Below are positions 47,883 to 52,527 of a stretch of DNA of 64,000 bases, piece after piece (positions within the stretch are counted from its first letter, which is position 1; each line of letters starts with the position of its first letter). This DNA comes from an uncultured Thermoanaerobaculia bacterium. Its GTDB lineage: Bacteria; Acidobacteriota; Thermoanaerobaculia; Multivoradales; Multivoraceae. Below the pieces are notes generated by a model. It was not told where the DNA came from, made no database searches, and saw only the letters and a list, made by a program, of their open reading frames with translations. Position numbers and translations under genes: made by a program. The stretch covers positions 62,001 through 126,000 of the forward strand of contig CATOTG010000004.1 of the NCBI GenBank assembly GCA_951813015.1, given 5' to 3'.

Positions 47883-50800
47883 TCAGACCGGCTCATCGTC
47901 CTCGAACATCAGCCGAAGAAAGTGCTCCTCGAGGAGGTGCGCCGTCCACGTTGCCCCCACCGGCCGAGCGTTCTGCAGGTTGTGATCTCCGTTGGCGTAC
48001 ACGACATCGAGTGCGGTCGCGAAACCGACGGATGTCCCAGCCCAGTTCTGGGCCTTGAACCACTCGTTGAGAACGAGGTTGTCCTGCTCGACGCCGTCAA
48101 CCGCGTCGCCACCCGGCCGCTTGCGCCAGATCACCAGCGCCCGACGGTCGTCCGGCAGCAGACCCTCGACCGCCCGAAACCACCATCCGCCGCTCGGCGT
48201 CTCCCGGAGCGAGTTCCTGAGCCTCAGCCGGCCTTCGCTGTCACGCTCGAAGTCGGCATCGACCTGCCGGGGCGCCCAAAGCCGGGAGACCCGGAGCCCG
48301 AGAAGCCAGTTGAAGGTCTCAACCAGGTCCACCGGCGTTTCCCGGCTCTCGTCCGACCCGGGCCGCTTGACCTTGAGCGCGTACGCCGTCGGATCCATGA
48401 ACCGCTCCACGTCGAGCAGCGAGGTGGCCCGTCCGACGTCGACGTCGAGCAGGTAGCGGAGAAGGTACCGCTCGCGCTGCGCAAAAGCTCTCTTTGCATC
48501 TTCAAAGATTTCCGGGGGGGGGGGGGGGGGGTAGGCGTTTGGTCGCGTGTCGCTCCGGCCGCAGCCGTCGGAACATGAAGATTGTTCAGCGTGTCCTCGT
48601 ACGACTCGAGGCGAATTACCTTCATGAACCGGGGCGACCGTTCCGCCTCTTCTTCGGTCGCCTGACGTATCGGCCTGCCGTTCTTCCACTCCGGCGAGTA
48701 CGTAACCTTCTTGAGGCGCGGGACAAGCACCGTGTCGAAGTGCTCGCCCATCTCGACGAGAATGAACTTGCGGTCGCCGCCGTCCTCACCGTTCAGGTTG
48801 ATGACGGCATGGCCGGTGGTCCCGGAACCGGCGAAGTAGTCGAGAATAGTGCCGGAGTCTCCTTGGCACGCCGCCCGCAAGAGACGACCATAGAAACGGG
48901 CTGAATGCGAGTACGGAAAATCTCGCAAGCCAAGACGTTTGAGATCCGTACGGCCGCGTGTGGCGTCCTGCAAGATCGAAGGCAGTTGCCTCCTGGTCTC
49001 CTTAGAAAGGTACATAATCTGTCGTGGTTGGGTCTTCTCGTCCTTGCCGAACTGAATCTCGCCGGCACGTAGCATTCCGGCAAGCGTGGATGGAGTCCGT
49101 GAGAAACCGTTGGGAGGCACTTGACAAGGTCTACCCGTCGTAGGGTGGATGAGCGGAACAAAGAACTTGGGGTCAGATCGCGGCTCCGGAGCTCGCAGGC
49201 TGACGCTCTGAAAGATACGTCCCGTTTCGTCGATGTGCCTGTATGCCTTCTCGCCACCGGTCAGGCGGGGGTTACTCCGCAGCCATGACCGGTACTTCGC
49301 CCTGACCGTATCAGTCACCTTCCCGGCTTCGCGAACGAGATGTGCAGCCTTTTCAGCCATCGCTCGCTGAGACACGTTGGGAAGTTGCACAGGCACAGTA
49401 CTCCACGATCGCCAGATCACGTACTCATGCTGAGTGGCGATGCCACCGCCTCCTGTCATGGGATTCCTCTTGTCCCAGACAAGCGTGCTTGCGTGACCGA
49501 GAGACAAGCTGTCGCAGAGAAGATGTAGCCGTTCGTACTCGTTCTCGTCGATGTGACAGAGAAATCTAGCTTCCGGCGACAGGAATGAGCGTACAAGTGC
49601 AAGTCTCTCAGCCATCATAGCCATCATTGTTAGCCAAGTCGAGTGGCGGTAGTCGTTTTTGTAAATGAAACCGCTTGTGGCAGTGTTGTACGGCGGGTCA
49701 AGGTGTACGCAGTCAAGGCGGCTAGAAAAGCGGCGAAAGAGCGTCCTGAGAGCTTGGGAGTTCTCGGCGTGGATGAGAAGGTGACGGCGCGGACCAGCCG
49801 GCGGATTGCCCAAGGCTTCGCGCAGTCGTGAAGCAAAGTTGCTGTCGGTGTGCCGCGTGTCGACCATCAACGTCGGCTGCGACCGCAGGAACTCCACGGT
49901 CAGCGGCTCGGTGTAGCCGGGAGAGGATAGATCGCGCTCGATGGCGTCGATCCCGCAGAGGTTGGCCCATTCCCGCCGCTGCGCGTCGTTCGCAGCAATC
50001 TCCGGCAGGAACTCGTCCGGGATACAGCCGAGGCGGATGCAGTACGAGGTTTCGACGACGAACCTCTTCTTGAGCCAGAGGCGCTTCTGAAAGTTCTCCA
50101 GAGAGGCGAGGAAGTCGATGACGGGCAAGGCGGAGCGGCGGATGGCGCGGATGCGGGAGAGGTACTGCTCGGCCCGCGGGGCGTCCTGGTTCTCGATGTC
50201 GTCGAGGCGCATGACCTCGTTCTTGATGTAGAAGTCGAGTTCGCGTCTGAGGAAGCCGCCGAGGTCCTTGTGGATGAAGTAGTCGAAGGTGTTGCGGCCG
50301 GTGTAGCGCTCGAGGTGGACCCGGAGGCGGGACTTGTCGCTCGGTTCGCCGCTCGGTTTGACGTGCTCTTGCTCGAGGTTGGCGAGCCAGCGCCGAAGGC
50401 TGGTCCGGGACACGGCGAGTGCGGCGATGCGGGACTCGGCGTCATCGAGGAGAGGCTTCTGCTTCGGCGGTGTGGCCGTGTCCGCCCGCAGGTTGGCGGG
50501 CCAGTCGTTCGTGGTGGCGGGCCGATACTCGAAGCGGAGGGCGAGTTCGCTGACACCGTTTGGGCGGTTTCTTCGGACGCGAAGTCGCCATCCGCCAGCA
50601 CGAACACCCGAGTCTTTCCCGCGGCGGGCTTCACGTTGCCGTGCTCGCCCTCGGCCGCATCGACCAGCCGGAAGTGAACCCGCATCGGGTCGTCGGCGTC
50701 GTCGGGGCGCAGCCGGAAGCTGTAGTTCCTCAAGTACTCGTCGGTCTTGATGTAGTACTGGTCGGCATTGGCCCAATGCAGCTTGACTTCCTCGCCTTGG

Positions 50801-51225
50801 TAGGGGAGCGCATAGACGCCGTCCTTGTAGACGCGCTGGTTGATGAAATCGCCATCCTTGTAGTAGCGGCGGAAGAACCGGTAGAGGTGGTCGTAGACGT
50901 CCGTTTCGATGGCGTGAAGGTCGTCCGCTTCGTCGAGCCTGGCTCGGAGCTTGCGGACCGTCTCGGCGGCTTCGGGCGCGACGCCGAGCGCCTTTGCCTG
51001 TTGCTCCGCCTCCCGGAGTTCCTGCTTCGTCCGGTCGCGGTCCGCCGAGCCGTACTCGCGCAGGGCCTCTCGTACCTTCGTCTTGAGGTCCTCTTCAAGG
51101 AACCGCGTCACCTCCGCGCTCCGGGCGTGCATGATCCGGTAGAACCCGAAGTCGAGTTCCGGCTTGTCGAGTTGGAAGAGCTCCTTGAGGAGCTTGACGA
51201 GCTTGTCGAAGCGGGAGGTCATCAT
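47883..51225 (-). CDS. Type III-like DNA methyltransferase (Mod), out of frame at an 18-base G/C tract
   Basis: The expected length is about 1110 residues. The N-terminal domain starts [20 protein letters not shown] at ATG 51222 or 51225 and includes [20 protein letters not shown]. Motif IV is DPPYNT, in the segment starting [20 protein letters not shown] (about 49660). Motif [18 protein letters not shown] lies later (about 48810), so it is the beta-class order of Type III Mod. The conserved C-terminus [18 protein letters not shown] through [13 protein letters not shown] follows a poly-C (coding) tract. As read, C18 puts that domain out of frame. A second break near 50570 (GAAGAAACCGCCCAAACG) also splits the N-terminal part. 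N6-adenine modification is the family's known activity. Confidence 0.85.
48514..48531. repeat. 18-base G homopolymer inside mod; candidate phase-variation tract
   Basis: G18 on the plus strand is C18 in the mod reading direction and encodes a proline run. From the upstream frame, C16 or C19 continues into the conserved domain ([16 protein letters not shown]). C18, as here, gives RKSLKMQ and about 96 foreign residues to a stop at 48224. C17 reads G-N-L then TGA. No other homopolymer of this size occurs in the window. Observed length depends on sequencing accuracy. Confidence 0.8.
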
Positions 51226-51266: not shown

Positions 51267-52042
51267 TCAGCCGAGGAGGGCCTTGTTGATGAACGTTTCG
51301 ATTCGTTCGCGGTTGGCGCCCAGATTCGAGTACTGTCTGTCGCAGACATCGGTGAAGCGAGCCAGAACCTTGCGGCCGATCTTCTCCTGATCCTCGAACA
51401 CGCCGAGAGTACGGAACTGCGCTCCCCGCTTCTCGAAGTGGTGGATGGCGATCGTGGCGGCGTTCGTCCGATTGTCGTTCGTCAGCCCGTAGATGAACAG
51501 CGGCTTGTCGATTCCGTTCACGCGGCAATCGACGGCGTAGTTTCCCTGGGGATCCGCCTCGGGATCGCGCCAGTCGAAGACTCTTCGCTCGGCCGGTATG
51601 CACTCCTTCAGGAATCCTCGCAAGTCGTCCTTGAAGGTGGTGAGCACGCGCTCGCGAGACAGGTAGTTCACGTCGAAGACGCGGAGAATCGCCTGGACGA
51701 AGGAGAAGAGTGCATCTCCGAAGCGCGCATCGGCACAGGCATGACGAGCTCTCCGTCGTGATCCTCGACTCCAAACATGTCCAGCGCGTTCGAGATCAGT
51801 TTCTGGCGCGTACCGCGATGAAGGTCGGCCGTGTCGCTGTCGTATGACAGGCGCATGAACGTGTGGGCCTCGTCGGTCAGTTGCCACCCGGAGCCCTGTT
51901 GCTTCAGCACGATGACGAGGCCGTCCCCGTCGTCGAACTCGAAGGGCGTGACGACCCGGTACCGGTTGATGCCCTCCGGCATGACGTCGATCTGGCGGCA
52001 GACCTTCCGCCGGAACTCGTCGCCGATCCGCTCGCCGTTCAT
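51267..52042 (-). CDS. DUF1828/DUF1829-like protein, frameshifted as read
   Basis: The expected length is about 258 residues. The N-terminal half (FEFDDGDGLVIVLKQQGSGW, QLTDEAHTFMRLSYDSDTAD, GTRQKLISNALDMFGVED) matches DUF1828. The C-terminal half, one base out of frame near 51742 (FGDALFSFVQAILRVFDV; LSRERVLTTFKDDLRGFL; DCRVNGIDKPLFIYGL; ARFTDVCDRQYSNLG), matches DUF1829. The ATG overlaps the preceding stop as ATGA. It lies 41 nt upstream of mod. Family function is unknown; position suggests a defence-associated role. Confidence 0.7.
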
Positions 52043-52527
52043 GGTCGTTCCTCCGGGAAGAGCCTGGCCTGGAAATTGAGGCGCGGGGCAATTGCCAGCT
52101 TGGCCTCCGCTATCAAGCAGCGCAGGGCGCCCTCGTAGTCTCCGTACGTCGTCGCGGATTCCGCGTACGCGTCTTCGCGACGGCCCGAGCGTTGGTAGCG
52201 TTCCGTGGCTGTGTGGATGTGGAAGCCGGTGACGGTCGTTCCCTCGATTCGGTTCCGGTGGATGTGGCTTCTGCCGTTGTACCGTCGAAGCCGAAACCAG
52301 CGGTTCGATCGGGGCACGCGAACGGCCAGGATGACCGAGAAGTCCAGGGCGTTGGCGCGACTTCGCCGGAGTACCACCCTGAACTCGTTGCCGTCGTCGC
52401 CACAAGACAGAGCGGTCGCACGGGCGTGCATCCCCGTGTCGCGCAGGCGGGGCAGGTCGGTGCGGTCGCCGACCGGCGCCTTCGGAGTGTGGATGAGGTC
52501 GTCAATCTCCTCATCAGTGTACGTCAC
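52039..52527 (-). CDS. DUF6978-like protein, first gene of the R-M operon
   Basis: This protein has 162 residues from GTG 52527 (or the adjacent GTG 52530). It opens TYTDEEIDDLIHTPKAPVGD, with EFRVVLRRSRANALDFSVIL, WFRLRRYNGRSHIHRN and FHIHTATERYQRSGRREDAY as its most conserved-looking parts. I recall DUF6978 proteins with a similar H-T-A-T-E-R-Y motif next to DUF1828 genes, but this is memory rather than a search. It overlaps the DUF1828 gene by ATGA. No enzyme motif is obvious. Confidence 0.5.
   Translation of the reverse strand: MTYTDEEIDDLIHTPKAPVGDRTDLPRLRDTGMHARATALSCGDDGNEFRVVLRRSRANALDFSVILAVRVPRSNRWFRLRRYNGRSHIHRNRIEGTTVTGFHIHTATERYQRSGRREDAYAESATTYGDYEGALRCLIAEAKLAIAPRLNFQARLFPEERP

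Follow-up and report, generated by a model that had tools for sequence, protein, structure and literature searches.

A poly-C tract in the late linker of a Type III-like mod gene of Acidobacteriota: a probable contingency element

Does a base repeated 18 times in a methyltransferase gene switch part of the enzyme on and off, or does it mark a gene that is broken or wrongly assembled? The question is raised by a mod gene in the window, i.e., the whole stretch of 64,000 nucleotides that was analysed. Read directly, the plus strand has 18 G here with no interruption. Among the G/C runs of the 64-kb window, 47 are of length five, nine of length six, none of 7-17, and one of 18. Extrapolation with a ratio of about 0.17 per added base predicts about 6e-9 runs of at least 18 in the window. 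Origin by chance is rejected on this distribution, as a preliminary description of this DNA had held; the next-longest G/C run in the window is only six. The frames read in that description are confirmed by translation. With C18, as here, the catalytic frame enters RKSLKMQ and about 96 foreign residues; with C17 it reads G-N-L and stops; with C16 or C19 it joins the 209-residue C-terminal frame. The features of the locus and the other tracts discussed below are listed in Table 1.

Table 1. Features of the mod locus and other long tracts of the lineage (plain positions are those of the window; L numbers are loci outside it)
Feature	Location	Strand	Evidence or remark
C18 tract in mod linker (G18 on plus strand)	48514..48531	-	place conserved in four relatives
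AT-rich 8 bases, +2 to +9 past the C run	48505..48512	-	common to long tracts
Mod catalytic part	48224..50776	-	Pfam N6_N4_Mtase 6.2e-19; PADLOC MTase_III 2.8e-162; frame lost past tract
Mod C-terminal domain, 209 residues	47883..48513	-	PADLOC MTase_III 6.6e-13, profile 897-958; frame differs from core
Mod N-terminal part	50559..51225	-	split from core by 1-base deletion vs G019; start codon read by eye
res, 1097 residues	44514..47807	-	PADLOC REase_III 2.3e-188; Pfam ResIII 5.9e-8
DUF1828 gene, upstream of mod	51668..52405	-	Pfam DUF1828 2.2e-18; interrupted near 51733 vs G019
SspB/DUF4007 gene of an Ssp-type system, C28	L057 8125-8152		out of frame; beside SspC-family gene
Second Type III-like Mod, run of 19 (G on coding strand)	L064 7915-7933		behind methylase match; out of frame
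Second Mod of G019, run of 31	L090 4099-4129		same place; out of frame; diverges 173 residues later
PglX-family gene of G019, G12	L089 3495-3506		between two matched parts; out of frame
Type ISP C-terminal fragment, 251 residues, C16	L059 7997-8752		in frame
PDC-M33A-like gene, C17			in frame; 56-residue match to candidate family PDC-M33A, 6e-11
Two LRR proteins, C14 each			own genome
Region ahead of repetitive protein, C22			own genome

The locus is best described as a Type III-like restriction-modification operon, whose activity is predicted from sequence. Mod has the beta-class motif order, with DPPYNT before FAGSGTTG in the window and in the orthologues. The Res encoded next to it has helicase and PD-(D/E)XK-like nuclease motifs (GSGKT, DEGH, and PD...DPK in the window) and is a single open frame in the window and in four other loci, whose Res aligns over 1079-1097 residues at 62-94% identity. 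The assignment to Type III-like Mod in the preliminary description is thereby upheld by Pfam, PADLOC, and matches to solved Type III Mods. The DUF1828 gene probably belongs to the same operon as mod. No RNA element is found between 44000 and 53000 among Rfam families at the gathering threshold.

The preliminary description had also cautioned that indels in the window make the exact tract length uncertain, and rightly so, because single bases are missing near 50558 and 51733 relative to G019, which is 94.8% identical. The first of these lies in the N-terminal part of mod and places about 250 N-terminal Mod residues in another frame; the second lies in the neighboring DUF1828 gene. They may be assembly errors or real frameshifts, and the window copy may accordingly be misassembled or broken.

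The search for the Mod family covered 21 genomes of the genus, including the own genome, and gave matches in 12. In the five best-scoring long Mods the match halts near profile position 880 and restarts near 897, and a C run stands at this break in all five: 27 in G019, 17 in G004, 9 in G006, 13 in G013, and 18 in G000. Orthology of these copies is based on scores and identity, without a tree. The tract length sets the reading frame of mod, and both lengths and frames differ across the five species. The G004 copy is in frame and fully open, and the other four are out of frame, each one C too few or two C too many for the in-frame reading. Next in score come two paralogues, from G019 and G016, whose domain is continuous and which have no G/C run of at least 7, i.e., the tract is present in five of the seven long Mods of the genus.

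Among the loci compared, the tract is not seen outside the genus. In a genome contig scan of the best 80 of 472 relatives, a C run of at least 9 is found at the linker in four, which are the four congeners. From the other 76, 35 full-length loci were picked by hand and aligned with the in-frame copy. At the linker, three consecutive prolines are found in none of these 35 homologues, and between two fixed columns it has 49-65 residues, versus 86 in the in-frame copy. The check proposed earlier, a search for homologues that are in frame without any tract, thus gives a divided answer: they are found in 35 of 35 aligned cases outside the genus and in two paralogues inside it, but the five orthologues all have the tract. 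Since it is absent from the loci aligned from outside the genus and from two paralogues, yet present in five orthologues, the tract appears to be a lineage-specific addition. We take this lineage to be one that lives in sponges; of the papers listed nearest to it, one is by its title on freshwater-sponge Pseudomonas, and in the others listed (10 of 158 matches) neither Acidobacteriota nor sponge appears. In L170 (8535-8542), a Mod homologue from a Gammaproteobacterium, the frame is broken at a run of eight G within the C-terminal domain.

The domain beyond the tract is under purifying selection. For the last 201 residues past the tract, read in their own frame, dN/dS is 0.255-0.308 in all ten pairs of the five species; for the Mod core it is 0.225 in the one pair computed, window versus G019. 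Four of five species have the domain out of frame, yet it is selected in every pair, i.e., selection persists beyond the repeat despite off states, and this is what a reversible switch predicts. That a C-terminal domain of about 209 residues is conserved, as had been claimed, is evident in a 52-row alignment. The idea that a length-variable tract gates this domain is therefore supported by the other lengths in four congeneric species, by selection, and by seven further long tracts in the genome, several of which are in defence genes. We assign a probability of roughly 0.75 to the tract being a contingency (phase-variation) element in a Type III-like operon, whichever consequence switching has.

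Some observations count against a contingency element. All four out-of-frame copies are in the same phase, for which the chance is 1/8. Upstream of the tract, a second frameshift interrupts the window copy. Loss of mismatch repair was considered and rejected, as MutS1 and MutL are found above the curated cut-off in five of five genomes; with both present, slippage should be damped.

In a contingency locus of this kind, slipped-strand mispairing would alter the number of C, so that the length of the run would be expected to change within a population. One residue class (C16 or C19 here) would connect the methylase core to the C-terminal domain. In the other two classes the protein would end immediately or after about 96 foreign residues. 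Target recognition in Type III Mods lies between the catalytic motifs, and a truncated Mod would retain these motifs and the region between them.

The structure of the in-frame orthologue of G004 (L160) was modelled from a 36-row alignment, with a mean pLDDT of 73.7 and a pTM of 0.47. Residues 868-943 have pLDDT below 50, residues 941-970 have 54-64 by tens, and residues 971-1110 have mostly 79-93, with one block at 61. Modelled alone, the C-terminal domain has a mean pLDDT of 84 and a pTM of 0.80. The models thus place the tract in a probably disordered linker, past the whole methylase fold and ahead of a folded domain. For the methylase part, structural matches are 6k0w, 7dsu, and 4zcf (Z 28.9, 27.1, and 26.5; rmsd 2.9, 3.7, and 8.8, respectively). 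The likeness to EcoP15I and Mbo45V is one of sequence and structure in this part, with a C-terminal domain following the core; the present Mod differs in having about 480 residues ahead of the methylase motifs and a poly-C linker. The C-terminal domain of the in-frame orthologue has no family in Pfam (E up to 0.1) or NCBIfam (E up to 0.01). Its best structural matches are to an unrelated chain in 8q3k (Z 6.2), EndoMS (5.0), and, lower, EcoT38I (4.0), all set aside as common arrangements, and EcoP15I (4zcf) is absent among the 50 matches listed. A Res-coupling role of this domain is suggested by its position.

In EcoP15I, as described in the available part of the report, the CTD of ModA touches Res, and the Mod dimer is formed via NTD and MTase (PMC4490356). 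Because the EcoP15I CTD contacts Res, a Mod cut in the linker could methylate without recruiting Res, an argument from position and not from a shared fold. A full-length Mod would then recruit Res and restrict, and a truncated Mod could not couple, so that restriction would be off while methylation may persist. We favor this consequence tentatively, at slightly less than even odds. If the domain is indeed the Res-coupling part, restriction would be switched off and protective methylation kept, and methylation kept in the off state would avoid self-cleavage upon switching back.

The main competitor agrees that the tract is a contingency element and differs in the consequence. Without its C-terminal domain Mod may be unstable or inactive, and methylation and restriction would be lost together, i.e., this would be an ordinary on/off mod with the tract in an odd place. 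The domain is conserved across the aligned homologues, so possibly it is required by the whole enzyme, and known phase-variable mods are described as switching the entire protein in the part available of PMC3498834. The tract lies, however, past a complete methylase fold in what is modelled as a disordered linker, and the part available of PMC4490356 places EcoP15I Mod dimerisation in NTD and MTase, not in CTD. Loss of both activities is a real contender, though we would sooner bet against it than for it.

Constitutive recoding is an unlikely explanation. It supposes that polymerase or ribosome slips steadily on the C run and yields a fixed mix of long and short Mod at any tract length. All four out-of-frame copies want one extra base, as would result from a -1 slip. 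But the G004 copy is in frame without any slip, the run varies from 9 to 27 between species, and in the same lineage the SspB of the own genome and the PglX of G019 want the other correction.

Decay, in which mod is a pseudogene in most species and the tract a neutral expansion, would agree with four of five copies being out of frame and with the additional N-terminal frameshift in the window copy. It is very improbable, given that the gated domain evolves under purifying selection in ten of ten pairs, that Res is open in five of five loci, and that the G004 copy is fully open. Least credible of all is a G run made or much lengthened in silico: two further single-base deletions lie less than 3.3 kb from the tract and poly-G junk occurs beside N and contig ends in some short-read assemblies of relatives, but in four other named assemblies a run occupies this same codon position, on which grounds artefact is rejected as the source, and in the own genome each tract is single and internal and the genes concerned are of few kinds. 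A reversible contingency locus is a better fit than decay or artefact. Note that the raw run counts (at least 12 G in 36 of 60 genomes and 16 of 20 congeners) are too high to serve as a rate, since they include junk next to N and at the ends of contigs.

Phase-variable Type III mod genes, or phasevarions, are already known, and their repeats are mostly towards the 5' end; here the tract is in a late linker and would gate a terminal domain. As far as the available parts of the reports describe them, the known genes resemble the present one in having a repeat inside mod, beside res, whose length decides the frame (PMC3230613, PMC3498834). Examples are the poly-G repeat of Helicobacter pylori modH (PMC3230613) and the AG repeats of Mycoplasma MmyCI (PMC3498834). 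The present locus differs in having C9-C27 in a linker past the catalytic fold, with the C-terminal domain alone gated, and in belonging to GC-rich Acidobacteriota. Another homopolymer in a gene body is found in hsdS of NgoAV from Neisseria gonorrhoeae, where, in the portion of the report available, a mid-gene poly-G removes the distal part and the enzyme still works; this gene encodes a Type I specificity subunit, and the switch alters specificity (PMC6789123). The preliminary description had said that such a setting would be unusual. Streptomyces coelicolor Pgl is a precedent in a GC-rich environmental bacterium: a G tract in the defence methylase gene pglX is described, in the part available, as expanding and contracting (PMC4365076). 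It differs in having 8 G versus 18 here and in belonging to another enzyme family. A PglX-family gene with a G tract is also present in the relative G019 (Table 1). If the contingency reading holds, such tracts, which are familiar mainly from pathogens with small genomes, also occur in an environmental phylum of high GC content.

Homopolymeric tracts in genomes have been surveyed, presumably by Orsi and colleagues. The available part of the survey describes homopolymers within coding genes as switches that inactivate them, with poly-A/T over-represented and near 5' ends and poly-C/G generally under-represented (PMC2831843). The own genome has one A/T run of at least 9. Its G/C runs of at least 9 number 17, namely six of 9, two of 10, one of 11, none of 12-13, and eight of 14-28. 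Three of these eight long tracts are in defence genes in the strict sense (SspB and the two Mods), and two more are in weaker candidates (the Type ISP fragment and the PDC-M33A-like gene). If 5% of genes are assumed to be defence genes, the chance is about 0.006 for three of eight and about 1.5e-5 for five of eight. The ISP enzyme itself is a separate ORF of 1557 residues downstream of the fragment, and the ORF beside the fragment is presumably an IS110-type transposase.

Genes aligning with SspB also have tracts in G013 (C13, L191) and in G001 (C25, L197, in a stretch with N). Past the tract, dN/dS is 0.19-0.31 for SspB in three pairs and 0.245 for the second Mod. In both Mods and in PglX the tract lies behind catalytic motifs. 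One could imagine a defence phasome of the genus, in which poly-C linkers of Mods, SspB, PglX, and perhaps others switch coupling or target reading and leave the core alone; we regard this as speculative and doubtful at present. Contingency tracts would then cover several defence systems of one genome. Tracts are also found before or near the starts of large secreted-looking, LRR, or PKD proteins (L097, L104, L107, L061, L062, L199, and L201), which form a second class of tract carriers. In L097 the tract is about 15 codons ahead of a start with a signal-like stretch. In G001, a C16 stands ahead of an AraC-type helix-turn-helix domain (L108, 3521-3536).

The long tracts also have a common flank. 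On the C strand, the AT content at +2 to +9 is 68% for 25 non-redundant runs of at least 13 (orthologues included) and 32% for 276 runs of 5-8 (Mann-Whitney p 3e-13). From +10 to +17 there is no AT difference between long and control runs, and upstream, at -2 to -9, AT is 40% versus 31% (p 0.025). With one site per group (22 groups picked by eye, runs of at least 12, 288 controls), the mean is 5.0 AT of 8, a value reached in none of 100,000 draws, versus 2.5 of 8 in the controls, and an A precedes the tract in 14 of the 22 groups versus 23% of controls. This grouped test omits apparent kin (L090, L091, L093, L094, L095, L100, L103, L190, L191, L193, L201, and others) and tracts lying close to the end of a contig, to N, or to junk (L102, L105, L189, L194-L198, and L202). 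The flank is not universal; L096 and L200 have only 2 of 8.

The signature, often an A, then C12-31, then about eight AT-rich bases (e.g., GRAAWTYT), is seen in non-homologous genes (the window and L057-L064, L089-L108, L192, L199, and L200), implying that a single process may create or maintain the tracts. Off-frame stop codons, slippage, and tract generation are candidate causes of the AT-rich flank. It opens a test of how long homopolymers persist in genomes with MutS and MutL. Past some tracts there is also a 24-base stretch, once in G000 and three times in G019, where the copies are alike by eye. A search of four genomes with at most three mismatches finds it nowhere in G004 and G006, in one place in G000, and in two places in G019; all three places are beside a tract, so that a dispersed repeat is rejected.
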